From positions 1 through 63,252 of the forward strand of contig MNXA01000021.1 of the NCBI GenBank assembly GCA_001871195.1: a stretch of 63,252 nt of DNA, given 5' to 3'. This stretch comes from Zetaproteobacteria bacterium CG1_02_55_237 (GTDB taxonomy: Bacteria > Pseudomonadota > Zetaproteobacteria > Mariprofundales > Mariprofundaceae). Within the stretch, counting starts at the first letter, position 1. Every line of letters starts with the position of its first letter. Below the pieces are notes generated by a model. It had not been told where the DNA came from and did no database searches. It saw only the letters and a list, made by a program, of their open reading frames with translations. Below, piece by piece: positions 1 through 63,252 of this stretch. The position numbers and the translations under genes were made by a program.

Positions 1-307
1 AGAAGCACGAACGCACAGTCAACAAAGACAACACCGTCAGCTTTGAGGGCAGAACCCTGCAAATCCCCAGCAATGAATACCGACACCATTATGTCAAAGC
101 CAGAGTGCGTGTTCACTGCTATACCGATGGCAGCATGGCCATCTTCCACGGGCCAAGAAAACTCGCCGAGTTTCAGCCTCTTCTGAAGCCCAAGGCCAGC
201 AAGCCGGAACTACCACTACCAAGGCTGAAGGCAGCAATATGAACCAAAACCAAACCGGACAACCCTTGTGCTCTAAAACCGGACAACTCTATTTGTTGCC
301 AACAGCC
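1..307 (+). mobile_element. Right end of an insertion sequence (truncated by window edge)
   Basis: Bases 5-307 reappear as the reverse complement of 62950-63252 (coordinates sum to 63257), so this is one copy of a multicopy element. It carries the C-terminal part of a transposase ORF, then two TTGTCCGGTTT-type repeats (on the minus strand) just inside the end GGCTGTTGGCAAC. The boundary at about 307 is where the two copies stop matching. The left part of the element lies outside the window. Direct repeats of the target cannot be checked because only one end of each copy is present. Confidence 0.85.
3..242 (+). CDS. Transposase, C-terminal fragment (ISNCY/IS481-like)
   Basis: Open reading frame running in from the left edge and ending at TGA 240-242; about 79 residues are visible. 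The segment has a short beta-rich tail (NTVSFEGRTLQIPS, then VRVHCYTDGSMAIFHG) of the kind found after the DDE catalytic core in ISNCY- and Mu/IS481-type transposases, where it contacts DNA or the partner subunit. The catalytic core is not in the window, so the family call rests on this tail and is tentative. An identical copy lies inverted at the right edge of the window. Confidence 0.6.
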   Translation, partial: KHERTVNKDNTVSFEGRTLQIPSNEYRHHYVKARVRVHCYTDGSMAIFHGPRKLAEFQPLLKPKASKPELPLPRLKAAI

Positions 308-8302: not shown

Positions 8303-8324
8303 CTGAGTTTCCTTTGCATAAATG

Positions 8325-19032: not shown

Positions 19033-19566
19033 TTATTTCCCCTGCCCCGTCTGCTTAGCCTCACCGGTCAAATCGGCCAGTATCGGATCGATCTCCTGAT
19101 AAAGCATGCGCCCCGGATATACCACTTCCACATTGCCCTGCGCATTGATCACAAAGGTCCACGGCTCACCGCGCACCTGGAAGGCATCGTAGGCCTCGGG
19201 GTTGTAGTATTGATCCATATGCAGGAACAGAACCTTGTGCTCGTATTTGTTGAGCATCTCCTTCATCAACTGCAGCTGCTTGTCGCACTGCGTGCAGTGA
19301 CCCGGCGTGGCAAACTCAAGCACAATCGGCTTGTTCAGCTTGAGCGCTTCATCAACGGACAGTTCATACATGCGCGGGTCGGGATAGCGATAACTGGTCA
19401 ATTTGGCCATATCGCCACCCACATCGGCCAGCGTCTTGGTCTTCAACGACGGTACCGGCTTGCCCTGCATGAATACCCCGCCACCACCAACACTGCCAAA
19501 ATCCATGTCGCACGCACCAAGTGCGGCAACACCCAGCAGCATCAAGCCAAGCGCAAGGGATTTCAT
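19033..19566 (-). CDS. Thioredoxin-fold lipoprotein (CxxC)
   Basis: Encodes 177 residues with a lipoprotein signal (lipobox LGAC, Cys19). The thioredoxin-like domain has FATPGHCTQCDKQ (Cys91, Cys94), a typical redox site, and the cis-Pro region RGEPWTFVINAQG. Such envelope thioredoxins keep the cysteines of apocytochromes reduced for haem attachment or handle copper-site thiols. It overlaps the half-length oxidase-like gene by four bases, implying a role with that complex. Confidence 0.85.
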   Translation of the reverse strand: MKSLALGLMLLGVAALGACDMDFGSVGGGGVFMQGKPVPSLKTKTLADVGGDMAKLTSYRYPDPRMYELSVDEALKLNKPIVLEFATPGHCTQCDKQLQLMKEMLNKYEHKVLFLHMDQYYNPEAYDAFQVRGEPWTFVINAQGNVEVVYPGRMLYQEIDPILADLTGEAKQTGQGK

Positions 19567-20078
19567 CGTGATTGCCGCCAGCCGGCACAGGTGCGGAAAA
19601 TGTTATAGGCCCATATGCAGTTGGCCAGCAGCACCAGAGTGCCGAAGATGCCCATCACCGCAAGCCATGGCCGAACCAGGACTTCCACTTCAGCCGGCGT
19701 CATGGTCACACTGGCCATACCACCGATGGTGCCCGCTACGCTGAAGAACACCACCATGCCGAGTAAGCCAAAGTTATGCGTCCAGAAATGCAGCTTGACC
19801 AGCGGCATACTGTAGATCGGCCGCCTTACCAGGCGTGGGATGATGTAGTACACCGCAGCAAAAATAGCCATCTCCACCCAGCCCAGCAGGTTGATATGCG
19901 TATGAGCGCGGACAATAAGCTTGCCGAACATGCGATGATCAACGAAATGCCTGAACTCATGAATACCACCCATCAGGGCACCCCATGAGAACCCGATGAT
20001 GCTGTAGATAACACAGGCAAATACAAACCAGAGCGTGTATTTTACGTATTCCTCATCTTCCCATGGCTGGTAGTTCAT
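19563..20078 (-). CDS. Half-length haem-copper oxidase subunit I-like protein
   Basis: Encodes 171 residues with about four transmembrane helices. Two segments recall CcoN/NorB: RAHTHINLLGW (compare VHVHAVIFGW of the CcoN in this window) and YYIIPRLVRRPIYSMPLVKLHFW. Only the first third to half of a full subunit I (460-480 residues) is represented; the CuB and high-spin haem ligand helices are absent, so oxygen or NO reduction is not expected. It may bind a b-type haem as an electron relay or sensor. Four-base overlaps on both sides bind it to the cytochrome c and thioredoxin-like genes. Confidence 0.72.
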   Translation of the reverse strand: MNYQPWEDEEYVKYTLWFVFACVIYSIIGFSWGALMGGIHEFRHFVDHRMFGKLIVRAHTHINLLGWVEMAIFAAVYYIIPRLVRRPIYSMPLVKLHFWTHNFGLLGMVVFFSVAGTIGGMASVTMTPAEVEVLVRPWLAVMGIFGTLVLLANCIWAYNIFRTCAGWRQSR

Positions 20079-47088: not shown

Positions 47089-47314
47089 CACACCACAGGC
47101 AAAAGCGCGGTTTTGCCTATGCTTCACAAAATCAAGCACTTACGCGCATGCTTTTGGCGGCCCGCCCATGAGCCGCACGGACTCTCTGAGTTTCCCAGAG
47201 CATCCTTTATTCCGTGACGGGGATGGTCATGCCTGTTATCCGGTAGTATGATCACTCGTGTTTTGAAGCATCACACCAACAGAGCATCAAACCAACGAAA
47301 GTGAGCCTTTGCCG

Positions 47315-48970
47315 ATGACCCAGAAGGACCTGACCGCCCAACCCGATCTGACACAGCACGACACAGGAACCGGAGCCCAACGCAGTCGCATCCCGGTTTA
47401 CATGGATTTTCTCCCGCCATGCAACCATGCCTGCCCTGCCGGCGAAGACATCCAGGCCTGGCTGGCTCTGGCCCAGGAAGGGCTGTATGAAGCCGCATGG
47501 CAGAAGCTGATTGAAAACAATCCATTCCCCGCCATTCACGGTCGCGTCTGTTATCACCCCTGCGAAACGTCCTGCAACCGCGCCCTCACCGATCAGGAGG
47601 TGAGCATCCACGCCGTCGAACGTTTTCTCGGTGATTTGGCTCTGGAAAAAGGCTGGACGCCAAGCTTCACGGCGCCGCCGAACGGCAAAAAGGTTCTGAT
47701 CATCGGCGCCGGCCCCAGCGGCCTGTCCTGCGCCTATCACCTCAAACGCCTCGGACATGATGTAGAAGTTCGTGAGGCAGGTCCGTTTGCCGGCGGCATG
47801 ATTCATTTCGGCATCCCGGCCTACCGCATGCCGCGCAATGAGCTCAATGCCGAAATTAAACGTGTTGAGGACATGGGCGTGAAGATCGTGCTCAATCATC
47901 GGGTTGAGGATGTGCTGGCCGAAAAAGAGGCAGGCTGTTTTGATGCCGTATTCATCGCTGTCGGCGCACACCTCTCCAAGAATATCGACATCCCCGGCCG
48001 CGATGCGGCCAAAATCATGGATGCGGTCAGCTTCCTCAAGAGCGTGGAAAATGGCGAAGAACTGCATATGGGTCGGCGCGTAGCCATTTATGGCGGCGGC
48101 AATACAGCCATGGATGCGGCACGCACCGCCAAACGTCTGGGCGCAACAGAGGCGGTCATCATCTACCGCCGCGACCGTGCCAGCATGCCGGCGCATGATT
48201 TTGAGGCCGATGAAGCCATCGAGGAAGGCGTGAAGATCAACTGGCTGCGCACCATCAAGGAAATCGATGCCACCACCTTCAAGGTTGAGGTCATGGAACT
48301 GGATGACAAGGGCCGCCCACAACCCACCGGACGCTACGAATCACTGGAAGTCGATTCGCTGATTATGGCTGTTGGTCAGGATACCGATACCGCTTTCCTG
48401 CGGCAGATCCCCGGGATCGAATTCAACCGCGACGACACGGTGATTGTGAACAATGGCATGATGACCGGTGCCGACGGCATCTTCGCCGGCGGCGATATGG
48501 TGCCTTCCGAGCGCTCGGTCACCATTGCCACCGGCCATGGCAAGAAGGCGGCACGGCATATCGACGCGTGGCTGCATGGCAGCACCTATCAGACCGCCGA
48601 CAAGCATCCCATCGTCGGCCATGAAAGCCTGCACCTGTGGTATCGCACGGAAGCGCCGAAGAAGAAACAGGGTGAACTGGCTCCGGAGAATCGTCTCGGC
48701 GGTTTCGAGGAAATCATGCAGGGACTTACCGAGCAGGAGGCGCAGTTCGAGGCACGCCGCTGCCTGTCCTGCGGTAACTGCTTCGAATGCGACGGCTGCT
48801 ACGGATCGTGTCCGGAGGATGCGATTATTAAGCTAGGCAAGGGCAACCGCTACCAGTACAACTACGATCGCTGTACCGGCTGCGCCACCTGCTACGAACA
48901 GTGCCCATGTCACGCTATCGAAATGGTTATCGACACCTCCGCACAAACAGCAAAGGGAGGTGCCGCATGA
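47315..48970 (+). CDS. GltD-like NADPH:ferredoxin oxidoreductase with two [4Fe-4S] clusters
   Basis: Encodes 551 residues from ATG 47315. The N-terminal CNHACPAGEDIQAW and GRVCYHPCETSCNR segment is a Fer4_20 Fe-S domain; a FAD Rossmann fold (IIGAGPSGLSCAYHL) and an NAD(P) fold (YGGGNTAMDAARTAKRLG, with downstream IIYRRDR favouring NADPH) follow. The C-terminus has an 8Fe-8S ferredoxin-like domain (CLSCGNCFECDGC and CTGCATCYEQCPCHAI). It probably shuttles electrons between NADPH and ferredoxin or directly with the pyruvate:ferredoxin oxidoreductase, with which it overlaps by four bases. Confidence 0.87.
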   Translation: MTQKDLTAQPDLTQHDTGTGAQRSRIPVYMDFLPPCNHACPAGEDIQAWLALAQEGLYEAAWQKLIENNPFPAIHGRVCYHPCETSCNRALTDQEVSIHAVERFLGDLALEKGWTPSFTAPPNGKKVLIIGAGPSGLSCAYHLKRLGHDVEVREAGPFAGGMIHFGIPAYRMPRNELNAEIKRVEDMGVKIVLNHRVEDVLAEKEAGCFDAVFIAVGAHLSKNIDIPGRDAAKIMDAVSFLKSVENGEELHMGRRVAIYGGGNTAMDAARTAKRLGATEAVIIYRRDRASMPAHDFEADEAIEEGVKINWLRTIKEIDATTFKVEVMELDDKGRPQPTGRYESLEVDSLIMAVGQDTDTAFLRQIPGIEFNRDDTVIVNNGMMTGADGIFAGGDMVPSERSVTIATGHGKKAARHIDAWLHGSTYQTADKHPIVGHESLHLWYRTEAPKKKQGELAPENRLGGFEEIMQGLTEQEAQFEARRCLSCGNCFECDGCYGSCPEDAIIKLGKGNRYQYNYDRCTGCATCYEQCPCHAIEMVIDTSAQTAKGGAA

Positions 48971-51900
48971 GCGACACAAACAGCCCCGTAGAACAGGCAC
49001 AACAGGTTGCCATGGATGGCGGCACGGCGGTGGCGCACATCGCCTACCGCGTCAGCGAAGTCATTTCCATCTACCCCATCACCCCGTCCACCGATATGGC
49101 CGAACTATCCGACAACTGGTCCTCACAGAAGAAACCGAACATCTGGGGACAGGTGCCGGATGTCATTGAAATGCAGAGTGAGGGCGGTGCCGCCGGCACA
49201 GCGCACGGCGCGTTGCAAACCGGAGCGCTGACCACCACATTCACCGCTTCGCAGGGCCTGATGCTGATGCTGCCCAATATGTACAAGATTGCCGGCGAGT
49301 TGACCGCCTGTGTCTTTCATGTGGCCGCCCGTTCGCTGGCAGCTCAGGGCCTGTCCATTTTCGGCGATCATCAGGATGTGATGGCAGCGCGCACCACAGG
49401 CTTTGCCATGCTCGCCTCCTCCTCCGTGCAGGAAGCGCACGATGCTGCCCTGATCACCCATGCAGCCACCCTTGAAGCGCGTATTCCCTTTATTAATTTC
49501 TTCGATGGCTTCCGCACCTCGCATGAAATCAACAAAATCCGTCTGATTCCCGATGCGCATATCCGGGCAATGATCGACGATGAGCTGGTCTTCGCGCACC
49601 GCAACCGGGCGCTGAATCCGAGCAATCCGTTTATCCGCGGCACCGCGCAAAATCCGGATGTTTATTTTCAGGGCCGCGAAAGTGTGAACAGTTTCTATGC
49701 CGCAACGCCGGAAATCGTGCAAGGCTGCATGGATCGCTTCGCCAAACTCACTGGCCGGCAGTATCACCTGTTCGATTACCACGGCGCTCCTGATGCCGAG
49801 CATGTCATCATCATCATGGGCTCGGGTGCTGAAACCGTTTGCGAAACCATTGATGTACTCAATGCCAATGGGGCCAAATTCGGCGTGCTTATCGTGCGTC
49901 TGTATCGTCCATTCAGTGCAAAGCACCTGATTGGCGCCCTTCCGGCAAGCTGCAAACGCATCGCCGTACTGGATCGCACCAAGGAGCCCGGCTCCGGCGG
50001 TGAGCCGTTGTATCTGGATGTGGTGACGGCTCTGGTGGAATGTGTGGCCGACGGCAGCTTCCCGCAGATGCCTGCCATCATCGGCGGGCGTTATGGCCTG
50101 TCCTCCAAGGAATTCACCCCGGCCATGGTCAAAGCGATTTACGCGGAGCTGGCCAAGGATAAGTCAAAGAACCACTTCACCATCGGTATCAATGATGATG
50201 TAACCCACTCAAGTCTGGAGTACGACCCATCCTTCAGCATCGAGCCCAAGTCGGTCACCCGCGCCCTGTTCTTCGGTCTGGGCTCCGATGGCACGGTGTC
50301 GGCCAACAAGAACAGCATCAAGATCATCGGCGAAAGCACCGATCTCTACTGTCAGGGTTATTTTGTCTACGACTCGAAGAAGGCCGGCTCACACACCATT
50401 TCGCATTTGCGATTCGGCCCGGAGCCGATTCATGCCCCCTATCTGATCGAATCGGCCAATTTCATCGCCTGCCACAAGGCCACCTTCATCGATGAGGTGG
50501 ATATGCTGGACAAGGCGGCCGATGGCGCTGTTTTCCTGCTCAACACGCCGCATTCCGCCGATGAGATATGGGCCACCCTGCCGCTGCCTGTGCAGCAGCA
50601 GATGATTGAGCACCATGTACACTTTTACGTGATTGATGCATCAAGCGTAGCCCGCGACACCGGCATGCGCGGCCGCATCAACACCATCATGCAGACCTGC
50701 TTCTTCGCCCTCTCCGGCGTGCTTCCACGCGAGGAAGCTATTGCGAAAATCAAGACGGCCATCGAAAAAACCTACTCCAAAAAGGGTGCGGAGATCGTCA
50801 AGCAGAACTTCGTTGCCGTGGATGCAGCGCTGGATCATCTGCATGAGGTAAAGATACCGCAAACAGCCGACAGCCTGCGCGGCATGCATCTGCCTGTACC
50901 TGCTGCCGCACCGAAGTTCGTACAGGAAGTCACCGGCCCGATGCTGGCCGGACACGGCGATGCCCTGCCGGTAAGCATGCTGCCGGTGGATGGCACCTAT
51001 CCATCGAGCACGGCCAAGTGGGAGAAACGCAACATCTCCGATTTCGTGCCCAAATGGGAACCGGACACCTGTATTCAATGCGGCAATTGCAGCTATGTAT
51101 GCCCGCACAGTGTGATTCGCGCCAAGTTCTACCATGAAGACCATCTGGAGAAGGCCGACGAGGGCTTCCATTCCGCACCGGTTAGTGCGCGCGGCTTCCC
51201 CGAAACCCGCTATACCCTGCAAATCTATGTTGAGGACTGCACCGGCTGCGAACTGTGCGTGCATGCCTGCCCGGCGCTGGATCCGGCGGATCCGACGCGC
51301 AAGGCCATCAACATGGACGACAAGGCGCCGCTGCTGGAACAGGAAAAGAAAAATATCGAATTCTTCGAAACCATCCCCTACAACGAACGCGCCAATATCG
51401 ACTTCTCCTCAGTGCGCGGTGCACAGTTCCTCGAACCTTTGTTCGAGTTCTCCGGGGCCTGCTCCGGTTGTGGAGAAACACCGTATATCCGCCTGCTCAC
51501 CCAGCTCTTCGGCCCACGCCTGCTGGTTGCCAATGCCACCGGCTGTTCGTCGATCTTCGGCGGCAACCTGCCGGCCACGCCATGGAGCAAGAATGCCGAT
51601 GGCAAGGGGCCAGCCTGGTCGAATTCATTATTCGAGGACAATGCGGAATTCGGCCTCGGCATGCGCATCTCGGCCGACCATCAACTGGCCATGGCCAAGC
51701 AACGCCTGCACGAAATGGGTGCCGACTATCTCGATCTGGAGTTTATCGAGGCCCTGTGCAACACCGACCAGCACATCGGTTCGGAGATGCACAAGCAGGC
51801 CCTTCGCGTGAAAGCCCTGAAGAGCAAGCTGGCCGAACTAGACACACCGGCGTCACGCGAACTGCTGACTGTTGCCGATCATCTGCTCAGGCGCAGCGTG

Positions 51901-52560
51901 TGGCTGGTCGGTGGTGATGGCTGGGCCTACGATATCGGCTCATCTGGTCTGGATCATGCCCTGGCCACCGGGCGTAATATCAATGTGCTGGTGCTGGATA
52001 CCGAGGTTTATTCCAATACCGGCGGGCAGGCTTCGAAATCCACGCCAACCGCTGCCACAGCCAAATTTGCTGCCGCCGGCAAGCGTGTCGGCAAGAAGGA
52101 CCTGGCCTTGCAGGCCATCTCCTACGGCAATGTTTATGTGGCACGTGTCGCCATGGGGGCAAATCCGCAGCAGACGCTTCTGGCCATGCGTGAGGCTGAG
52201 GAATACGACGGCCCGTCGCTGATTCTTGCGTATAGTCACTGCATCGCCCACGGTATCGATATGACCCAGGGACTCACCCAGCAGGATCTGGCAGTAGCTA
52301 GCGGCTACTGGCCGCTGATCCGCTACAACCCTGCACTGCGACGCGCCGGCAAGAAGCCGTTCGTGCTGGATTCACCGGCTCCGCGCATCAAGCTGAAGGA
52401 ATACGCCTACAACGAAATGCGCTACAAGTCGATTCTGCGCACCAACCCGGAGGAAGCCGAACGCCTGATGACCCAGGCGCAGGCCACACTGGAGCGGCGC
52501 TGGAATACCTACGAGCACATGGCCACGCAGGAGTCTTCGGACTTCCAGCCAACCGGCTGA
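48967..52560 (+). CDS. nifJ: Pyruvate:ferredoxin (flavodoxin) oxidoreductase
   Basis: Encodes 1197 residues from ATG 48967 in an ATGA overlap with the GltD-like gene; fused single-chain form. Domains in order: pyrimidine-binding TPP domain (ISIYPITPSTDMAE), gamma domain, the ferredoxin domain (CIQCGNCSYVCPHSVI, CTGCELCVHACP) and the C-terminal pyrophosphate-binding TPP domain (GGDGWAYDIGSSGLDH, LDTEVYSNTGGQ). It interconverts pyruvate and acetyl-CoA with reduced ferredoxin and is oxygen-sensitive. The genome thus has both PDH and PFOR. A strong terminator follows. Confidence 0.95.
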   Translation: MSDTNSPVEQAQQVAMDGGTAVAHIAYRVSEVISIYPITPSTDMAELSDNWSSQKKPNIWGQVPDVIEMQSEGGAAGTAHGALQTGALTTTFTASQGLMLMLPNMYKIAGELTACVFHVAARSLAAQGLSIFGDHQDVMAARTTGFAMLASSSVQEAHDAALITHAATLEARIPFINFFDGFRTSHEINKIRLIPDAHIRAMIDDELVFAHRNRALNPSNPFIRGTAQNPDVYFQGRESVNSFYAATPEIVQGCMDRFAKLTGRQYHLFDYHGAPDAEHVIIIMGSGAETVCETIDVLNANGAKFGVLIVRLYRPFSAKHLIGALPASCKRIAVLDRTKEPGSGGEPLYLDVVTALVECVADGSFPQMPAIIGGRYGLSSKEFTPAMVKAIYAELAKDKSKNHFTIGINDDVTHSSLEYDPSFSIEPKSVTRALFFGLGSDGTVSANKNSIKIIGESTDLYCQGYFVYDSKKAGSHTISHLRFGPEPIHAPYLIESANFIACHKATFIDEVDMLDKAADGAVFLLNTPHSADEIWATLPLPVQQQMIEHHVHFYVIDASSVARDTGMRGRINTIMQTCFFALSGVLPREEAIAKIKTAIEKTYSKKGAEIVKQNFVAVDAALDHLHEVKIPQTADSLRGMHLPVPAAAPKFVQEVTGPMLAGHGDALPVSMLPVDGTYPSSTAKWEKRNISDFVPKWEPDTCIQCGNCSYVCPHSVIRAKFYHEDHLEKADEGFHSAPVSARGFPETRYTLQIYVEDCTGCELCVHACPALDPADPTRKAINMDDKAPLLEQEKKNIEFFETIPYNERANIDFSSVRGAQFLEPLFEFSGACSGCGETPYIRLLTQLFGPRLLVANATGCSSIFGGNLPATPWSKNADGKGPAWSNSLFEDNAEFGLGMRISADHQLAMAKQRLHEMGADYLDLEFIEALCNTDQHIGSEMHKQALRVKALKSKLAELDTPASRELLTVADHLLRRSVWLVGGDGWAYDIGSSGLDHALATGRNINVLVLDTEVYSNTGGQASKSTPTAATAKFAAAGKRVGKKDLALQAISYGNVYVARVAMGANPQQTLLAMREAEEYDGPSLILAYSHCIAHGIDMTQGLTQQDLAVASGYWPLIRYNPALRRAGKKPFVLDSPAPRIKLKEYAYNEMRYKSILRTNPEEAERLMTQAQATLERRWNTYEHMATQESSDFQPTG

Positions 52561-53658: not shown

Positions 53659-53735
<77 letters not shown>

Positions 53736-53898: not shown

Positions 53899-54687
53899 AT
53901 GAAATTCTTAACACTGGCATTCCGAATGACACTGACAGCATACTGCTTCGCGCAGTTTGCCATTCAGGTCCTTTGGCTTGGCAAACAAGTCATGCCTCAA
54001 ATCATGAGGTACCAGGGCCAAGTGTCTGAAAAGCGCAAACATGCGCTGTTTCATGCGCATAAACATGTTGTCATTTACCTGAATACGCTCACCAGACTCG
54101 GGCTGGTCTCATTCAGGTTTGTTGGCACCCCGATAAACGAGCCATCAGTCATTGTCGCCAACCATCCCTCTCTACTTGATTTTATTGTTTTGCTCAAAGA
54201 TTTCCCCAATGCCGTTTGCCTCTACAAATCAAAAACGCGCGATAATCCGATCCTTTCTAATTTCGTAAAGGTCGCGGGCTATATTGAAGGCATGGATGGA
54301 ACCAGAGAGGCCAGCAAACGAATTATCAATGAGTGTTGTCAGCGTCTGGATGAGGGTCATCATGTCATTGTTTTTGCTGAAGGCACAAGATCCAGGTCGA
54401 GCGTATCCATCGGTCGTTTCCACACGACCAGCTTCCTCGCTGCGTTTAAGTCCAACTGTGTCGTTCAACCTGTTGTGATCTACTGCGACCCTCTTTTTCT
54501 GGGTAAAAAACAGTCGTGGACGGAATTCTCCAGAGGGAGAAATCGAATGGTGATTGAGTATCAAGAACCAATCAGGGTCGCAGAACTGCCAAAGGAGTTA
54601 AGGTCAACAAAAGGCTTGGTTGACCATACCAGGGCAACGATAAAAAAACGCCTGCTGGAATTAAGCGTAGAAGAAAATAGTGCATAG
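53899..54687 (+). CDS. PlsC-like 1-acyl-sn-glycerol-phosphate acyltransferase
   Basis: Encodes 262 residues. The acyltransferase block has NHPSLLDFIVLL (the HxxxxD-type motif as NHPSLLD) and VFAEGTRSRS (motif III). An N-terminal hydrophobic segment suggests a membrane-anchored enzyme that transfers acyl chains from acyl-ACP or acyl-CoA. AT-richer than flanking genes. GGGGAG precedes the ATG. First gene of a plus-strand lipid or natural-product-like cluster. Confidence 0.85.
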   Translation: MKFLTLAFRMTLTAYCFAQFAIQVLWLGKQVMPQIMRYQGQVSEKRKHALFHAHKHVVIYLNTLTRLGLVSFRFVGTPINEPSVIVANHPSLLDFIVLLKDFPNAVCLYKSKTRDNPILSNFVKVAGYIEGMDGTREASKRIINECCQRLDEGHHVIVFAEGTRSRSSVSIGRFHTTSFLAAFKSNCVVQPVVIYCDPLFLGKKQSWTEFSRGRNRMVIEYQEPIRVAELPKELRSTKGLVDHTRATIKKRLLELSVEENSA

Positions 54688-54819
54688 AATATCGCCTTGC
54701 CTGAAAGTAAAACTCATTAGCCTCAAGCTTTATGCACAGAGCAGCTACTCTTTACAGAACATAGACAATAGACTCTGAGCTGTCCAAAACCATCACCAAG
54801 CCGCAACCGAGGGGGCATC

Positions 54820-55053
54820 ATGCATGATGAACTGAAAAGTTTTGTTTTCCGGGAGTTGGTCCATGTTCTCGATGAGACATCATTTTCCGGTGATGACGAT
54901 CTTCTGGAGGCAGGCCTGGACAGTATGGGCATTATGCGACTGGTGTTGTTTATCGAGGAGCGGTTCGGCGTCACGCTCCCGGACGAGGAAATCGAGCCGG
55001 ACAATATCCAGACGCTGAACCGGATCAGCAGTTGGATAGAGCGTCACCGCTAA
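54820..55053 (+). CDS. Discrete acyl/peptidyl carrier protein
   Basis: Encodes 77 residues. The phosphopantetheine attachment site is LLEAGLDSMGIMRLV with the modifiable Ser in DSM; helices and acidic surface (PDEEIEPDNIQ) are typical of discrete carriers. GAGGGGG precedes the ATG. A carrier outside the fab genes, next to adenylation and condensation-like genes, indicates a dedicated biosynthetic carrier. Confidence 0.9.
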   Translation: MHDELKSFVFRELVHVLDETSFSGDDDLLEAGLDSMGIMRLVLFIEERFGVTLPDEEIEPDNIQTLNRISSWIERHR

Positions 55054-55070
55054 AGACAGGATGCGCTGGT

Positions 55071-56351
55071 ATGCCCGGAGCCCTTAATACCGCAGATCAC
55101 TTTACCTTGATGATGGATCACGAGATCCGTCGTTCGGGCCTGGCTGGCAACATGTGTGCTCTTGTTTATGAACTGGAGAGCAGTCCCGATGTGGATGTGA
55201 TCAGTAGCCGGTGCAAAGCATTTATTGCACGCTTTCCCGATACGAATGTCAGGTTGAGGCAGAAAGGACGCCGCTACTATTGGGAGAGGAATGGCGACCC
55301 GAATCCAGCTGTGTTTTTTCGCCATTCAGCAAAGAGCAGGGATGAGGCTCTGGAGACAATAGGCAAGATCATCAATGTTACAACGCCTGCTGATGCTGTC
55401 GCTCCAATCGAATTCCATCTGGTCGAGATGGCTGAAAGAGCCTTCTTCATGATGCGCTGGTTTCATCCGATCTGCGATGCCAAGGGCGCAGAATTGGTTG
55501 TCTGGCATCTGCTTGGTGATGCAGAGCCATCGGATGGCGTGGATGCCTTCGGGCAACTCACGTCAAAATGGGGTTTGTGGAAAAAACTGGGGATGATATT
55601 CAGGGCCAAGCGCCATATCAGTGCCCTGGATAAAACTGCCAGCTCATTGCCAAAGACGATCGCCATTCAGGCGGACAGGCTGGACTTCCATATCGTACGT
55701 ATTGATGCCGAAACATCCAAAGTAATCATGGCGCGTGCCATGAAAGAAGCAGGGATGACCGGGATAGCGCTCTATTTTATCGGCTGCCTTATGCGTGCGC
55801 TGGAGAAGGCCGGCTGTGACGAGAAGGAGGGCTTCTGCGTTCCCTATGCGATGAATATGCGCAAGCGTAAAGCCCTGTTTCCGATGCTGGGCAATCAGGT
55901 CAGCTTCCTCTTTGCTCAGGCTAAGCTGGAAGAGGTGCGTGATCGCAAAAAACTTTTTCAGGCCCTTCGCGAGCAACACAAGGCGACGGTACGTTCAGGG
56001 CTGGATCATGCCCTGGTTCCCCTGATGCAGGCGGGCAGCTGGCTATCGCTGGAGAAATACGGGCGCATCATACGTAACACAGGGAAAGGACAGGAGCGTA
56101 GCTCTTTCTGGTTTTCATACACGGGCGAAGCCGATCCGAAAGTGAGCGAGATTGCCGGTGCGAAGGTGATGTCGATGTTCCAGCTCAGTCAGGTCACGGC
56201 CCCTCCTTCACTTGCCATACTGGTAAGTCAGTTCAACGGTTGCATCACATTGAGTTTTAACTATGTGTCCAGCCAGATCGACCGGCAGTGGCTTGAGTCC
56301 CTGACCGGAGCCATGTCTGCAGAGCTGAAGGGCGAGGAGACAGACACTTAA
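55071..56351 (+). CDS. Condensation-domain-like acyltransferase
   Basis: Encodes about 426 residues from ATG 55071. The overall pattern is that of NRPS condensation/chloramphenicol-acetyltransferase-like folds, with a degenerate active-site motif FHPICDAKGAE in place of HHxxxDG and a later YAMNMRKRKALFPMLGNQVSFLF (split here to keep it short) segment corresponding to the DFGWG-side region. The catalytic second His may be absent or shifted, so activity is uncertain. It is placed between the carrier and the adenylation enzyme, two bases from the latter, so it likely transfers the carrier-bound unit to an acceptor. Confidence 0.68.
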   Translation: MPGALNTADHFTLMMDHEIRRSGLAGNMCALVYELESSPDVDVISSRCKAFIARFPDTNVRLRQKGRRYYWERNGDPNPAVFFRHSAKSRDEALETIGKIINVTTPADAVAPIEFHLVEMAERAFFMMRWFHPICDAKGAELVVWHLLGDAEPSDGVDAFGQLTSKWGLWKKLGMIFRAKRHISALDKTASSLPKTIAIQADRLDFHIVRIDAETSKVIMARAMKEAGMTGIALYFIGCLMRALEKAGCDEKEGFCVPYAMNMRKRKALFPMLGNQVSFLFAQAKLEEVRDRKKLFQALREQHKATVRSGLDHALVPLMQAGSWLSLEKYGRIIRNTGKGQERSSFWFSYTGEADPKVSEIAGAKVMSMFQLSQVTAPPSLAILVSQFNGCITLSFNYVSSQIDRQWLESLTGAMSAELKGEETDT

Positions 56352-56352
56352 G

Positions 56353-57792
56353 ATGCTCGTTGCCGATCACTTGATAAAACAGCAAATGCACACCCCGGAT
56401 CGCATTGCCTTCAGCGAAAACGGCCGGGATACAACATATCGAAGCTTCTTCGTGAATGCAGGGCGCATCAGTCATGTTCTGCTGCATCACGGCGTGCGCC
56501 CCGGAGATCGGGTATGCCTGCTATTGTCGCGCGGCATTGATGCGGCTCAAGGCATCTACGGCATCCTTTTTGCCGGCGCCTGTTATGTGCCGCTGGATCC
56601 CCAGAACCCTGCATCCAGGCTCGCTTATATTATGGGCGATGTGCGGCCACGCTGCATCATCGGCATCGGGGCATGCCCTGAGTGGTGTGACGCATCTGTT
56701 GAATGGATCGATCTCAATAATCCGCAGTTGTTCGGAGATGAGCAGCATGGGGATATCGATGGGGTTTACCGCTCTTCCCCCGAAGATCTGGCGGCGATTC
56801 TCTATACCTCGGGTTCGACAGGAAACCCGAAGGGTGTATCGATCAGCTGTCGCGCCATTGATGCCTTTGTGTTCTGGTCGGCAACGACATTTGGTATCGG
56901 TAAGGAAGACCGGATTGCCAGCCTGGCCCCGTTTCACTTCGACCTGTCCCTGTTCGATTTGTTCACCGGCGTTTATTGCGGGGCACGAACCTGTTTCGTG
57001 CCGCAATCACTGACGCTGTCACCGAAAAAGCTCGTTGCCTGGTTCGATGAAGTGGCGATTACGAGTTGGTATACCGTTCCCTCAATACTCGGCTTTCTGG
57101 CCTTGCGCGGCGGACTGGCTCCCGGGCAGTTGCCTGCCATGAAGCGCATTCTTTTTGCCGGCGAGGTGTTCCCGCTTCCAGGCCTGATCAGGCTGGCACA
57201 GGCACTTCCTCATGTTGCGCTTTACAACCTGTTCGGGCCGACCGAAACAAATGTTTGCACCTTTTGGCCTGTGCAGCGATCAAGACTGGAGACACTGGAG
57301 TCCGTCCCGATTGGCGGGTCGGCTTGCGAAGCGGAACTCATGATCAGTGATTCGGGTGAGTTGTTGGTCAACGGCCCGTGCCTGATGAGTGGCTACTGGC
57401 AGGAAGGACATGTTCAGGCGCTGGATCACCCGTGGTATCACACGGGTGATCGGGTATCGCGTAACGATCATGATGAGCTTCTTTACCACGGGCGAATGGA
57501 CCGTATGATCAAATCGTCCGGGTATCGAATCGAACCCGCCGAGATCGAGGCCGTCATCAACCGTTTCGAAGCGGTGCGAGGTTCGGTGCTGGTTGGCGAG
57601 AGTGACCCCATCTGCGGTCAGCGACTGGTGGCCGTGGTGGCCGGCAAGAGTGTTGATCTGGAAGCCCTGCGGGCGTATTTGAAACAAAATCTTGTGGCCT
57701 ATATGCAGCCTTACCGCTTCGTGCAGTTGCAGGCGATACCGCTATTGACGAACGGCAAGGTGGATTACCGGGCTGTCGCAGGGATGATTTAG
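56353..57792 (+). CDS. Stand-alone adenylation enzyme (PltF-like amino-acid or acid:carrier ligase)
   Basis: Encodes 479 residues of the ANL superfamily. Core motifs are present: YTSGSTGNPKGVSIS (A3), LFGPTETNVCTFWPV (A5), YHTGDRV (A7) and GRMDRMIKSSGYRIEPAEIE (A8), with the catalytic Lys in LLTNGKVDYRA (A10). The WYTVPSILGFL and LFAGEVFPLPGLIRL segments resemble PltF-type ligases that load an amino acid onto a free-standing carrier. The amino acid cannot be named from sequence alone. Its start is one base after the upstream stop. Confidence 0.84.
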   Translation: MLVADHLIKQQMHTPDRIAFSENGRDTTYRSFFVNAGRISHVLLHHGVRPGDRVCLLLSRGIDAAQGIYGILFAGACYVPLDPQNPASRLAYIMGDVRPRCIIGIGACPEWCDASVEWIDLNNPQLFGDEQHGDIDGVYRSSPEDLAAILYTSGSTGNPKGVSISCRAIDAFVFWSATTFGIGKEDRIASLAPFHFDLSLFDLFTGVYCGARTCFVPQSLTLSPKKLVAWFDEVAITSWYTVPSILGFLALRGGLAPGQLPAMKRILFAGEVFPLPGLIRLAQALPHVALYNLFGPTETNVCTFWPVQRSRLETLESVPIGGSACEAELMISDSGELLVNGPCLMSGYWQEGHVQALDHPWYHTGDRVSRNDHDELLYHGRMDRMIKSSGYRIEPAEIEAVINRFEAVRGSVLVGESDPICGQRLVAVVAGKSVDLEALRAYLKQNLVAYMQPYRFVQLQAIPLLTNGKVDYRAVAGMI

Positions 57793-57801
57793 GAGGGTGT
57801 T

Positions 57802-58878
57802 TTGAGCAATCATTTTATTCCTGAGATAGGACCTGCTGTTGATCTCAGCATCAAAGAGGCAAAGCAGCGACTGAAACTGTGCGGGAAAGCGGGACTTTTC
57901 AGGCATGCCGTTTCCAATGAGTTCGGGGGACTGGGTGACAGTTTTGAAAAACTTTGTGGGGATCACGAACTGCTGGGAAGGGCAACGCGCGACCCGGGAT
58001 TGATCCTTGCCGCCAACGCGCATATCTGGGGCATTGTCTTTCCGCTGATCCGTTTCGGCAGCGACAGCCAGAAGCGGGAGTTGCTTCCCCGGCTTGTGAG
58101 TGGAGAGTTGATTGGTGGCCATGCCATCACTGAACCGCAGGCCGGTTCGGACACCCAAGCCATGCAGGCAAGCGCAGTGGCTACGGCCGACGGCTACCTG
58201 CTCAATGGCTGCAAACGCTATATCACCAATACCCCCATTGCCGATGTGCTGGTGGTTTATGCGAAGTACGAGGGGAAAATTTCGGCGTTCCTGGTTCGCC
58301 ATGACGATCCGGGTGTGAATTTTTCCGAAGGTCCTGTCGTGCAGGGCTGCGCTACAGCGACCATGGGCGACGTAATCATGTCAGATTGCCGGATTCCCTC
58401 TGACCGCCTGCTTGGCAAAGCGTGCTCGGGCAACATCATGATTCATTTGGCCCTGGAGCTTGAGCGTGCCTTCATTTTTTCCGGCATTGCCGGTGTGATG
58501 CAGTGGCAACTCGATGAGGTTGTGAGGTTTGCCAGAACACGGCAGGTGAAGGGTGCCCCCCTCTCCGATAATCAAGCGATCAGCCACCGCATTGCCGAAA
58601 TGAAACTACGCCTGGATACGGTGCGTATGTGGGTGGCCAAGTGCGCCGATCACTCTGACCGACGCAAACGCATTACGGTGGAGAGTGCGGCAACCAAATG
58701 GTATGCGAGTGAGGCATTCCTGAGTTCATGCCTTGATGCTGTTCAAATTCTGGGAACGAAGGGGCTGGAAGACGAGCATGCCGTTCTTGTTCAGGATGCG
58801 ATGGCAGGGCGGCTGTTTTCCGGCAGCACCGAGATTCAGAAGAATATTATTGCCGCCATGCTTGGCATGGGGAATTGA
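57802..58878 (+). CDS. Acyl-CoA-dehydrogenase-like flavoprotein (PltE-like)
   Basis: Encodes 358 residues from TTG 57802, supported by AGGAGG five bases upstream. The family signature GHAITEPQAGSDTQAM (FAD/substrate region) and ALELERAFIFSGIAG, with an ELER Glu in the place of the catalytic base, fit the acyl-CoA dehydrogenase fold; FSGSTEIQKNIIA is the C-terminal block. In PltE-type pathways such enzymes oxidise carrier-bound proline to pyrrole; next to an adenylation enzyme and carrier this function is likely here, though the substrate is unknown. Confidence 0.83.
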   Translation: MSNHFIPEIGPAVDLSIKEAKQRLKLCGKAGLFRHAVSNEFGGLGDSFEKLCGDHELLGRATRDPGLILAANAHIWGIVFPLIRFGSDSQKRELLPRLVSGELIGGHAITEPQAGSDTQAMQASAVATADGYLLNGCKRYITNTPIADVLVVYAKYEGKISAFLVRHDDPGVNFSEGPVVQGCATATMGDVIMSDCRIPSDRLLGKACSGNIMIHLALELERAFIFSGIAGVMQWQLDEVVRFARTRQVKGAPLSDNQAISHRIAEMKLRLDTVRMWVAKCADHSDRRKRITVESAATKWYASEAFLSSCLDAVQILGTKGLEDEHAVLVQDAMAGRLFSGSTEIQKNIIAAMLGMGN

Positions 58879-58890
58879 TTTGAAAATCCG

Positions 58891-59736
58891 ATGGCGCAGA
58901 TATTCTCAACAATGAGAATTCTGTTGGCCTTCCTGATCCTGGCTTGTGCTGTCCCCGCAGTTGCGGAAGAAATACCCAAGCCTCTCTGGGAGATCGGACT
59001 TGCAGGCGGCATCTTTACCATTCCCCAATATGTAGGCAGCGATCAGCGTTATACATTACCGCTTGGCTTGCCCTACCTCATCTATCGCGGAGAGATTCTG
59101 CGCGCCGATCGTGACGGCGTTCGCGGACGCCTGTTCGAAGCAGATGGGCTATCTCTGGATCTGAGTTTCTCATTCGGCTTGCCGGTAAGGAACAGCAATG
59201 ATGCGCGTCGGGGCATGCCTGCATTGCATCTGGTGGGTCAGGTCGGGCCAAAGTTGAACTGGATCATTGAACATCACGATGCGGACAAGCTGAGCCTGCA
59301 TCTTCCGTTGCGGATCGCTGCGGATACCAGCCAGACATTTCTCGGCTGGGTAGCCGAGCCGAGCCTGCGTTATGAACGTTACGATATTCTTCCCCGGATG
59401 GAAAAGCTCATCCTGCGCCTGGACGGAGGGCTGATGTACGCATCTAGGCGCTATAATCAATACTATTATGGCGTCGATCCGATCTATGCCACCACTACGC
59501 GGCCTGCTTACCGAGCCAGGCAAGGACTACACAGCTATTTCCTTGATACTTCGCTAAGTTATCAGTACGACGATGAGCTGAATGTCGGGCTCATGGTCAG
59601 CATGCGGACATTATCGGGCGGGGTAAACGCAGGCAGTCCGCTGGTGCGGAACAGGTTTTATCTTTCCGCCGGTCTTGGATTTACCTGGAGATTGTGGGCT
59701 TCTGAAGCGATGGTGCCGCCTGCAGATTCTCATTGA
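58891..59736 (+). CDS. MipA/OmpV-family outer-membrane protein
   Basis: Encodes up to 281 residues with a signal peptide (cleavage after VPAVA). Alternating beta strands typical of small barrels follow (GLAGGIFTIPQYVGSDQRYTLPLG, LPYLIYRGEILRADRDG, ending TWRLW). OmpV/MipA members include scaffolds for murein enzymes and porin-like proteins. ATG 58912 is an alternative start; neither has a clear ribosome binding site. Location within the cluster suggests a role in exporting or anchoring its product at the outer membrane. Confidence 0.8.
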   Translation: MAQIFSTMRILLAFLILACAVPAVAEEIPKPLWEIGLAGGIFTIPQYVGSDQRYTLPLGLPYLIYRGEILRADRDGVRGRLFEADGLSLDLSFSFGLPVRNSNDARRGMPALHLVGQVGPKLNWIIEHHDADKLSLHLPLRIAADTSQTFLGWVAEPSLRYERYDILPRMEKLILRLDGGLMYASRRYNQYYYGVDPIYATTTRPAYRARQGLHSYFLDTSLSYQYDDELNVGLMVSMRTLSGGVNAGSPLVRNRFYLSAGLGFTWRLWASEAMVPPADSH

Positions 59737-59984
59737 AAGCTCCGGACGATAACGCTCCGAAATCCCGAGCGTCCCGGGAGTGCACCGATGCCGGTTTGCG
59801 AACAACGCCGTGCTGCGCATGGCTTCCCGCCATATCCACTTCCGCAAGGACACACTGTTAAATGTCAGGGCTTGGGAAAACTTGCTTTCATTTTCCAATA
59901 TATCGATATTGCATGATATGGACGTCATCGTGGCACCGGGCGCCATTGTGGCACTGATCCCGGCAATTCTTCCCCGGCACTTGC

Positions 59985-60788
59985 ATGCGTAATGCGCGAT
60001 GGAAACCGTTGTTGCTGATTCGCGCAACGATCATCCTGCATTTATTGGCGGCAATCTTCGTCATGCTGGAACCTGCGCAATGGCGCTGGATGCTGGGCGC
60101 TGTTTTTGCCAATCACGCGCTGCTCGCCATGCTCGGACTGTGGCCGCGTAGCCACTGGCTGGGAGCGAACTGGACACGACTGCCGACTGCTGCCATAGCC
60201 AGAAATGAAGTCGCACTGACTATCGACGATGGCCCCGATCCTGTCGTTACACCGCAGGTCCTGGATATCCTTGATCGTTACGCTATCCGAGCGACCTTTT
60301 TCTGTATCGGTGAAAAAGTGGAGCGCTATCCGGACTTGTGCCGTGAAATTGTGCGCCGTGGTCATGCCGTTGAAAATCATAGCCAGCATCACCTCCACCA
60401 TTTTTCCCTGATGGGACCTTCTGCTATCACGCGTGAATTGCAGGCCGCTCAGGACACGCTCACTAGTATTACCGGCCAGCGCCCCCTGTTTTTTCGCGCA
60501 CCCGCCGGTTTGCGCAATCCCTTTCTTGATCCGGTACTCACTCGATTTGGTCTACAGCTCGCCAGCTGGTCGGCACGCGGTTTCGACACCCGGATCGGCG
60601 ATGCCGAACGCGTAAAAAGCAAACTGCTGCATGATCTGCGGGCGGGGGCCATATTGCTGATGCACGATGGCAATGCTGCGTGCACACCCGACGGCATTCC
60701 TGTGATTCTCGAAGCCCTCCCCGACATACTGGCCACAGTCAAAGCAGCTAGGCTGCATTTTGTCACCTTGCGTCAGGCCCTTTCATGA
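59985..60788 (+). CDS. Membrane polysaccharide deacetylase (NodB domain)
   Basis: Encodes 267 residues. Two hydrophobic helices (about 9-25 and 35-52) precede the NodB domain: TIDDGPDPVVTPQVLD (first catalytic/metal Asp), HSQHHLHHFS (metal His) and FRAPAGLRNPF. The carbohydrate-esterase family 4 removes acetyl groups from GlcNAc polymers or related glycolipids. The 248 bases upstream (59737-59984) hold only an unconvincing 70-codon frame. Its stop overlaps the start region of the next gene. Confidence 0.86.
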   Translation: MRNARWKPLLLIRATIILHLLAAIFVMLEPAQWRWMLGAVFANHALLAMLGLWPRSHWLGANWTRLPTAAIARNEVALTIDDGPDPVVTPQVLDILDRYAIRATFFCIGEKVERYPDLCREIVRRGHAVENHSQHHLHHFSLMGPSAITRELQAAQDTLTSITGQRPLFFRAPAGLRNPFLDPVLTRFGLQLASWSARGFDTRIGDAERVKSKLLHDLRAGAILLMHDGNAACTPDGIPVILEALPDILATVKAARLHFVTLRQALS

Positions 60789-60822
60789 CGGGTCATCTGC
60801 CGCATCTCATGGTGAAAAGGCC

Positions 60823-61494
60823 TTGAACGAAAACAAACAGCTGATGCCCTGGTACCGGCAAATTGCCGCAGTGATGCTCAGGGATGTGTATCTCAAAGCT
60901 ATTGGTACGCCAATTTTCATTGGTCTGTTTTTCGGCGCTTACTTCTATTTGCTCAACAATCCGGTCTACCCGGTAACGGTGATGCCCATGACCTCGCTGG
61001 ATCGGCTGATCGGCTTTCATCCGCTGACATTGTTCCTGTATCTATCACTGTGGGTCTATGTTTCCCTGCCCCCGGCATTATTGGCGACGCGGCGCGAGCT
61101 ATATGCTTATGTTAAAGCCATGGCCTGGATGTGCCTTGCAGCCCTGATCGTTTTCTACTTCTGGCCCACGGCCGTTCCGGTGGCCAATGTCGACTGGGCT
61201 GAGTATCCCGGTGTGGCTTTCCTTAAGAGCATGGATGCATCGGGCAATGCCTTCCCTTCGCTTCACGTAGCCACAGCCATTTTTTCGGGTATCTGGTTAC
61301 ATCACTTGCTGCGCCGCTTTGCTACGCCGCCGTGGGTTCTATTGGTCAACTGGGTATGGTGTATCGCTATCGTCTATTCCACGCTGGCCACACGCCAGCA
61401 TGTAGTGGTGGATGTGCTGGCCGGCATCATGCTGGGGGCGTTGGCTGCCATAGTATCATTGCGACCTCGCGCCTACGGAACCACAAACGATTAA
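60823..61494 (+). CDS. PAP2-type membrane phosphatase / inositolphosphotransferase-like
   Basis: Encodes about 223 residues from TTG 60823 (ATG 60844 also possible). Five or six helices; the active-site motifs PSLHVATA and TLATRQHVVVDVLAG match the PSxH and H...D of PAP2 enzymes, in the sub-type seen in inositol-phosphotransferases. The first KxxxxxxRP motif is not evident. It probably acts on a lipid phosphate on the outer face of the inner membrane. The 236 bases after it (61495-61730) hold no supported gene. Confidence 0.8.
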   Translation: MNENKQLMPWYRQIAAVMLRDVYLKAIGTPIFIGLFFGAYFYLLNNPVYPVTVMPMTSLDRLIGFHPLTLFLYLSLWVYVSLPPALLATRRELYAYVKAMAWMCLAALIVFYFWPTAVPVANVDWAEYPGVAFLKSMDASGNAFPSLHVATAIFSGIWLHHLLRRFATPPWVLLVNWVWCIAIVYSTLATRQHVVVDVLAGIMLGALAAIVSLRPRAYGTTND

Positions 61495-61730: not shown

Positions 61731-62948
61731 CTATGAACTGAATCGATAGGTGTTTTTTCCACTTTCCTTGGCGGCATACATGGCATCATCGGCTTTGCTC
61801 AAAAGATCTTCTGCAGCTGTTCCATCTTGCGGATACATCGCTATGCCAATGCTTGCGCCAACAGAGCACGAGTGGTCGTTGAGCATGATCGGTTCCGACA
61901 GTACATTGATAACCTTTGTGGCAATGGTGCCTGCCGCCTCTGAATCTGTTGTGGATGTCATCACCAGAACGAACTCATCCCCGCCCAATCTTGCAACGGT
62001 ATCCGATCCCCGGAGGCATTGCTGCAGACGGCTCGACACTTCTTTAAGCACATGGTCTCCCGCCTCGTGTCCAAGGCTGTCGTTAACATCCTTGAAGCCA
62101 TCCAGATCAAGGAAAAAGATGGAAATAATTTGCTTATTACGCTTCGCATTTGCTAATGCCATGCCCAGCCTGTCGTAAAGCAGGGGGCGATTCGGCAAGC
62201 CCGTTAGCAGGTCATAATGAGCCATATTCTCAATTATATCTTCAGCAATGCGGTGTCTCACCTTTGCCCTGGCCAGCAAACAGATGCCAATTCCTGCCAA
62301 CAGCGCAAACATTGCATTGAAGATTAAAAGCACTGTCCGTAATTCATGCGTCATACCCAGAATGGCTTCGCGCGGTGTGAAGCAGACAATCTTCCATCGG
62401 TATTCAGATTCACCTATATACTTGACGCTGGAACCCGATGCCTCGGGCGCCCCGGAACTGTTTTTTTGCCACTCTGCAAGCGGGAAGATCATGGAGAAAG
62501 TAAATAGCCCCTGCGCATCCATAAACTGACCGGATGGGGTGTCTGCGATTTTACCCCAGATGGCAGGGAATAAATTGGCAAATGTGTTGCCTTTCCTTTC
62601 GGGCAACATAAACCCCCATTCATCATCGCTACGTATTGCCCTGAGGAAATAGCCATCTCGGTTAAGCAACATGTCGTACATTGGTATTTCGTTATGCTTA
62701 AACTTATCCAGTTGTTCAAGGACCTTTCCCCCGAGATACGTCAATACGATAATACCCCGTTTTTCACCCCCGCTGTTGAAGATGGGCATACCGAAACGGA
62801 TGACCGGCTTGAACGGTCGTTCAATCATTCCGTGCTCCATATTCAGATCAAAGGGGGAGATAAATATCTCGCCCTCTTTAAGGCGGAATGTATCCTTGAA
62901 GTAATAGCGCCCGCTTTTGTCTTGTAGTTGATCCGGCGGCACGATCAT
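61731..62948 (-). pseudogene. Diguanylate cyclase, N-terminus removed by insertion sequence
   Basis: The remaining 405 codons encode the end of a dCache-like sensor (LQDKSGRYYFKDTF, FISPFDLNMEHG), one transmembrane helix (about 207-228) and a GGDEF domain with LGGDEFV and an RxxD-type region (RGSDTV) before it. Native proteins of this type begin with a transmembrane helix and about 100-150 more sensor residues; these are missing because the insertion sequence begins at 62950. An ATG at 62948 is one base from the junction, so a truncated protein could be made only if a promoter and ribosome binding site read out of the element. Confidence 0.85.
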
Positions 62949-62949
62949 G

Positions 62950-63252
62950 GGCTGTTGGCAACAAATAGAGTTGTCCGGTTTTAGAGCACAAGGGTTGTCC
63001 GGTTTGGTTTTGGTTCATATTGCTGCCTTCAGCCTTGGTAGTGGTAGTTCCGGCTTGCTGGCCTTGGGCTTCAGAAGAGGCTGAAACTCGGCGAGTTTTC
63101 TTGGCCCGTGGAAGATGGCCATGCTGCCATCGGTATAGCAGTGAACACGCACTCTGGCTTTGACATAATGGTGTCGGTATTCATTGCTGGGGATTTGCAG
63201 GGTTCTGCCCTCAAAGCTGACGGTGTTGTCTTTGTTGACTGTGCGTTCGTGC
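62950..63252 (-). mobile_element. End of an insertion sequence, inverted copy of 5-307
   Basis: Reverse complement of 5-307, base for base by inspection, starting with GGCTGTTGGCAAC and the two TTGTCCGGTTT repeats. The element disrupts the diguanylate cyclase gene. The window stops inside it. Confidence 0.88.
63015..63252 (-). CDS. Transposase, C-terminal fragment (second copy)
   Basis: Same reading frame as 3-242 on the other strand, stop codon at 63015-63017. Identical residues over the visible part. The rest lies beyond the right edge. Confidence 0.6.
   Translation of the reverse strand, partial: HERTVNKDNTVSFEGRTLQIPSNEYRHHYVKARVRVHCYTDGSMAIFHGPRKLAEFQPLLKPKASKPELPLPRLKAAI

Follow-up and report, generated by a model that had tools for sequence, protein, structure and literature searches.

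Genes predicted to convert L-proline into a carrier-bound pyrrole lie within a locus of the aryl-polyene type in the genome of Zetaproteobacteria bacterium CG1_02_55_237. We consider it probable, at roughly 0.74, that the proline-derived pyrrolyl group is passed into the aryl-polyene lipid pathway of the same locus. The window (the whole 63,252-nucleotide stretch of DNA that was analyzed) makes up contig C18 in full; the genome is 2.33 Mb in size. On the basis of strong homology, the enzymes encoded at 54820–58878 would attach L-proline to its own carrier protein and oxidize it to a pyrrole-2-carbonyl group. The condensation-like protein would then transfer this group to the polyene lipid pathway. 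By analogy with aryl-polyene precedents, the polyene lipid would be finished and put in the outer membrane by the PlsC-type acyltransferase, an LpxL-like acyltransferase, a glycosyltransferase, MMPL/LolA export, and MipA. Prior halogenation of the pyrrole by a Bmp2-like enzyme is predicted in most relatives; the window's genome lacks such an enzyme.

Organization and Predicted Chemistry of the Pyrrole Cassette

The first-pass annotation described eight plus-strand genes with tight spacing in the middle. All eight open reading frames are found where it placed them (table 1). With the condensation-like gene taken to start at its ATG, the core genes are 17, 1, 9, and 12 bases apart.

Table 1. Genes of the pyrrole cassette and its surroundings in the window
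Feature	Position	Strand	Basis
PlsC-type acyltransferase (ApeD/ArcD-like)	53899–54687	+	Pfam PF01553, 2.5e-16
Stand-alone carrier protein (PltL-like role)	54820–55053	+	PP-binding, 4.3e-10
Condensation-like acyltransferase	55071–56351	+	Pfam none; AlphaFold fold match; ATG at 55071, longer TTG ORF from 55032
L-proline--carrier ligase (adenylation enzyme)	56353–57792	+	AMP-binding; PigI/PltF matches
Prolyl-carrier dehydrogenase (PltE/RedW/PigA/AnaB type)	57802–58878	+	Acyl-CoA-dehydrogenase fold; NCBIfam RedW/PigA
MipA-family outer-membrane protein (ArcC-like)	58891–59736	+	PF06629, 1.7e-41
Polysaccharide deacetylase, aryl-polyene type (ArcN-like)	59985–60788	+	PF01522, 3.4e-30
PAP2-family membrane phosphatase, membership in locus unproven	60760–61494	+	PF14378, 1.7e-12
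Sensor diguanylate cyclase, C-terminal part	61731–62948	-	GGDEF, 1.8e-50

The reading of the core as a PltF/PltL/PltE-like system agrees with sequence comparisons, in which the best scores are obtained with proline ligases for the ligase and with prolyl-carrier dehydrogenases for the dehydrogenase. Among solved structures, the nearest to the ligase in single-domain scores are PigI (234.6 bits) and PltF (224 bits), with one other NRPS entry ranking between the two; multi-domain gramicidin synthases outscore both by adding up two domains. Over the pocket segment alone, PltF ranks first and PigI second. The first-pass annotation had proposed examining the adenylation pocket for substrate residues. 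The specificity code read by eye from the alignment is D, L, F, Y, L, A, L, V, and C, of which eight residues match PltF and one differs, pointing to a pocket of the proline type. Pocket residues are invariant in the seven of seven cassette ligases compared.

Against NCBIfam models, the dehydrogenase scores 268 bits with RedW, 263 with PigA, and 172 with FadE, all below the respective curated cut-offs, and is thus to be regarded as a relative of the prolyl-carrier dehydrogenases, not a certified member. Among solved structures, it matches the prolyl-ACP dehydrogenase 4irn best (201 bits). Residue Glu221 is invariant in all eight cassettes and aligns with the position at which 6af6 has Ala in place of Glu; judging from this alignment, it is the conserved catalytic Glu of the dehydrogenase. 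The carrier proteins are 62–90% identical and share an invariant GLDSMG motif, with the phosphopantetheine Ser, in eight of eight cassettes. Given a proline-type ligase, a dehydrogenase of the prolyl-carrier type with its Glu, and the invariant carrier Ser, we strongly infer that 54820–58878 should yield a pyrrolyl-carrier from proline.

In five relatives, the gene for a flavin-dependent halogenase-like protein, FAD1, sits between those of the dehydrogenase and MipA. The closest match of FAD1 is the pyrrole brominase Bmp2 (211–229 bits, against 137–154 for the next best). FAD1 keeps the WxWxIP motif and an invariant Lys. Of the three positions changed in the Bmp2 triple mutant, two are aromatic in FAD1, as they are in Bmp2. 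From these features we infer that the pyrrole would be brominated or chlorinated in relatives. In the window's genome, the search for a Bmp2-like halogenase matched only a second protein, FAD2 (31%), which fits a general flavin-halogenase profile.

The Condensation-like Protein

The condensation-like protein had no match in the profile search of Pfam and a weak match to WS/DGAT (wax-ester synthase). Since a sequence search of solved structures with its alignment returned nothing credible, a fold search was used. An AlphaFold (AF2) model built from eight sequences (mean pLDDT 70.6, pTM 0.78) matches folds of the NRPS condensation type, and the stand-alone protein AzeD is matched over its full length. 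In all eight proteins, the motif FHPxxDAKG is invariant. It corresponds to the second His and the Asp of HHxxxDG (His132 and Asp136, both invariant), with the first His replaced by Phe. By its modeled fold and HxxxD motif, the protein fits the condensation-domain superfamily. A search of plasmids with this protein gave no match.

An Aryl-Polyene Locus Spread over Three Contigs

Polyene genes of the window's genome are on two other contigs, C49 and C23, and encode a ketosynthase, reductase, dehydratase, halogenase-like protein, aryl-acid ligase, LolA, and MMPL exporter. The top structures for the ketosynthase are the ApeO proteins 6qsp and 7f28, the chain-length-factor partner matches ApeC of both, and the ketosynthase exceeds the curated cut-off of PRK09185. 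When its pocket was compared with the AbApeO/AbApeC residues reported previously (PMC8358021), Ala166, Cys167, Phe205, and His257 were universal and the position of His138 was variable in all groups; at the numbers given for Tyr135 and ApeC Glu142, the residues disagreed with that paper. The 4-HBA-thioesterase-like gene of the polyene operon of relatives is a fragment in the window's genome (L046:2989–3180, on C23). The gene of the polyene carrier is likewise on C23, at L046:6832–7122 (minus strand).

The ends of the three contigs bear the two ends of one insertion sequence (IS): window 1–305 and 62952–63252, L018:1–320 and 8323–8639, and L046:1–96 and 19329–19647. The assembly breaks at IS copies, so neighboring contigs can be ordered. 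The 5′ ends of C23 and C49 have identical 15-base flanks, AAAAACGGCTCCGGG, in the right orientation, as do the 3′ end of C49 and the 3′ end of the window (IS end at 62952), CGGCACGATCATGGG. When all pairs were compared, the remaining pairings of left and right ends agreed at no more than 8 of 15 flank positions. The join between C49 and the window also restores a gene for a sensor diguanylate cyclase that an IS copy interrupts. The N-terminal half, on C49 (L018:7918–8322), ends at MIVP and the C-terminal half in the window restarts with MIVP. On the strength of two IS joins with 15/15 target duplications, one of which reunites the split sensor gene, we conclude that the window's genome, too, has its polyene genes and cassette in a single convergent locus, the joins themselves being deduced from the target duplications. 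In most of the cassette-bearing Mariprofundaceae, the cassette is convergent with genes for the MMPL exporter, the ketosynthase and its chain-length factor, the dehydratase, the reductase, and halogenase-like FAD2.

The genes that flank the cassette are of the same type. Homologues of the PlsC-type acyltransferase, 57–69% identical, are present at most cassette loci, and in a Chromatiales genome (L047) a relative of it is upstream of the polyene carrier gene. MipA is also found at most cassette loci of relatives, where it adjoins the cassette or the polyene genes. No deacetylase turned up at the cassette loci of relatives; in four other aryl-polyene clusters, counterparts that are 53–62% identical lie between the exporter (MMPL) and ketosynthase genes. 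The arcuflavin cluster of Azoarcus (arcA-X) includes a halogenase, XanB2, a MipA protein (arcC), an acyltransferase, and a polysaccharide deacetylase (PMC3949708). From the content of that cluster and the four deacetylase counterparts, it follows by homology that PlsC, MipA, and the deacetylase belong to a locus of the aryl-polyene type, and the PlsC-type acyltransferase likely attaches the polyene to a lipid. The first-pass annotation assigned PlsC, the deacetylase, PAP2, and outer-membrane genes a role in placing the product on a lipid or glycan. This idea needs to be revised in part, in that PlsC, MipA, and the deacetylase are aryl-polyene components, which it did not recognize, and the inclusion of PAP2 lacks comparative support (no match in the seven relatives searched: three cassette-bearing relatives and four cassette-free Mariprofundaceae).

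Distribution of the Cassette and Descent of the Ketosynthase

Genes for the carrier, condensation-like protein, ligase, and dehydrogenase form a block whose order is shared by seven other genomes, with 45–90% protein identity, and a block order conserved to this extent is more than chance. The first-pass annotation had named conserved co-occurrence of 54820–58878 as a check on its reading, and the set is indeed kept together in these seven, which are from five other Mariprofundaceae and two Gammaproteobacteria (Chromatiales and Thiohalobacter).

The polyene ketosynthase is present in eight of eight cassette genomes. Across 100 genomes (that of the window and 99 relatives), four have the condensation-like protein and five the polyene ketosynthase, including all four of the former; these counts come from linked genes that are not independent, and they do not amount to a probability. 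In a sample of 398 genomes across the phylum, 67 have the ketosynthase at an E value of 1e-75 or better, and among these, eight Mariprofundaceae show 57% identity or more, whereas none of the others exceeds 49%. Identity is 55–60% in the two cassette-bearing gammaproteobacterial genomes. In the ketosynthase tree, the eight cassette genomes and two more, G031 and G274, form one clade (support 96/97) apart from the other sampled ketosynthases. No cassette was detected in G031, where the contig ends inside the reductase gene. Genome G274 is 56% complete, and its polyene cluster (L085) shows MipA and PlsC, with neither FAD2 nor the cassette beside the polyene genes. This reflects either a loss or the incomplete genome. 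In the Thiohalobacter genome, the polyene half and the cassette half are on separate contigs.

Possible Uses of the Pyrrole

We lean slightly toward the pyrrole being a cap, as a tentative proposal at somewhat short of even odds. Hydroxybenzoate from UbiC would start the polyene via an ApeH-type ligase, and the condensation-like enzyme would couple the (halo)pyrrolyl group through an ester or amide bond to the polyene or its lipid anchor, at a hydroxyl or an amine. All eight cassettes include the condensation-like enzyme, which is not true of the Bmp2-like halogenase, and conserved condensation-type enzymes more often form amides or esters. The predicted fold and the motif of the condensation-like enzyme are those of amide- and ester-forming enzymes, and it has weak similarity to WS/DGAT. 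With the aryl-acid ligase retained in the polyene clusters and UbiC found in 10 of the 11 genomes tested, 4-hydroxybenzoate can still serve as the chain starter, its role in E. coli (PMC8253772), and the polyene may form without pyrrole. However, no such aryl polyene was found described in open-licence literature.

It is also possible, if doubtful, that pyrrole is the starter. The pyrrolyl group would be moved to the polyene carrier by the condensation-like protein or the ketosynthase and extended by the type II machinery, with hydroxybenzoate replaced. A XanB2-type starter synthase was not found, as TIGR04444 had no match in nine genomes including that of the window, in a search whose control responded in 1 of 14 cases and below the cut-off. 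Additionally, the ketosynthases of cassette genomes form their own clade, and the cassette and halogenase adjoin MipA where the arcuflavin cluster has halogenase–XanB2–MipA (PMC3949708). The ApeO–ApeC pair has a much higher affinity for its own ACP1 than for ACP2 (PMC8358021), and this would give a shuttle step to the polyene carrier a function. Conversely, the retained aryl-acid ligase and UbiC speak against a pyrrole starter, as does the polyene cluster that G274 keeps without a detected cassette, but UbiC occurs nearly everywhere and its presence therefore cannot decide the starter. In known pyrrole pathways, moreover, the ketosynthase accepts the pyrrolyl-carrier directly. In its full form, an aryl-polyene-type class of outer-membrane lipid whose type II chain is started from a proline-derived, often halogenated pyrrole by way of a condensation-domain-like carrier-to-carrier shuttle, the starter proposal is rather unlikely.

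Physical linkage of the cassette and polyene genes does not prove that they make one product. Bmp-type pathways yield free bromopyrroles (PMC7730127), and the cassette could make a separate small molecule and merely share its locus with the polyene genes, as the separate contigs in Thiohalobacter and the polyene cluster of G274 might suggest. We regard this as improbable: cassette genomes from two classes, all eight of them, share one polyene ketosynthase clade, MipA and PlsC directly flank the cassette, and the cassette has no thioesterase. That these are ordinary genes for fatty-acyl activation and oxidation with no pyrrole chemistry, as the acyl-CoA-dehydrogenase fold and the Pfam homology of PlsC could imply, is most improbable and is rejected on the scores of the two enzymes, because the prolyl-specific models lead FadE by about 95 bits and the ligase has the score profile of a proline/amino-acid adenylation enzyme. 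Neither enzyme scores best against fatty-acid enzymes, an affinity that the first-pass annotation had said would count against its reading.

Relationship to Known Systems

Passage of the pyrrolyl group into the polyene pathway would join two systems that are each known. Like PltF/PltL/PltE, PigI/PigA, RedM/RedW, and Bmp1-4, the cassette has a proline ligase, a carrier, and a prolyl-carrier dehydrogenase, to which relatives add a Bmp2-like halogenase. Unlike them, it holds a condensation-like protein, has no thioesterase, and is linked to aryl-polyene genes. The locus shares with xanthomonadin and arcuflavin clusters (PMC3949708) an ApeO/ApeC-type pair, reductase, dehydratase, aryl-acid ligase, carrier, LpxL-like acyltransferase, glycosyltransferase, LolA, MMPL, MipA, PlsC, deacetylase, and halogenase-like protein. 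It differs from those clusters in having the proline-to-pyrrole cassette and no XanB2 that was found, and most relatives have a second halogenase, of the Bmp2 type.

The first-pass annotation knew of no named pathway with its gene set. This holds for the combination of a pyrrole cassette with aryl-polyene genes, but not for the surroundings, which are of the xanthomonadin/arcuflavin type. A search of open-licence papers, and so weak evidence of absence, found nothing on pyrrolyl aryl polyenes or on the two systems joined. Pyrrolyl polyenes of the DKxanthene and rumbrin types are made by modular bacterial or fungal synthases. They would be analogues of the product (a pyrrole on a polyene chromophore) if pyrrole is the starter, yet their modular synthases contrast with the type II aryl-polyene system of the present locus.

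Aryl-polyene clusters rank with the most widespread pigment clusters of bacteria, and those characterized in open-licence literature use starters of the benzoic-acid type. A conserved, patchily distributed version with a proline-to-pyrrole cassette would widen aryl-polyene chemistry. The pairing would also assign a role to an uncharacterized condensation-like family, and it predicts that relatives of marine iron oxidizers make (halo)pyrrole pigments.

Other Features of the Window

Between the PlsC and carrier genes, relatives (L013, L014, L015, L022, and L023) have a recurring set that encodes an epimerase, a TauE-like exporter, a DUF4410 protein, a YbjQ-like protein, and an SH3-like protein; this set is absent from the window. 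A tRNA-Arg (CCG) gene at window 53659–53735, 163 bases 5′ of the PlsC gene, is a possible insertion point. Window 47309–52560 holds a gene for a ferredoxin-containing NAD(P)-binding oxidoreductase, followed by one for a fused pyruvate:ferredoxin oxidoreductase, both identified by eye.
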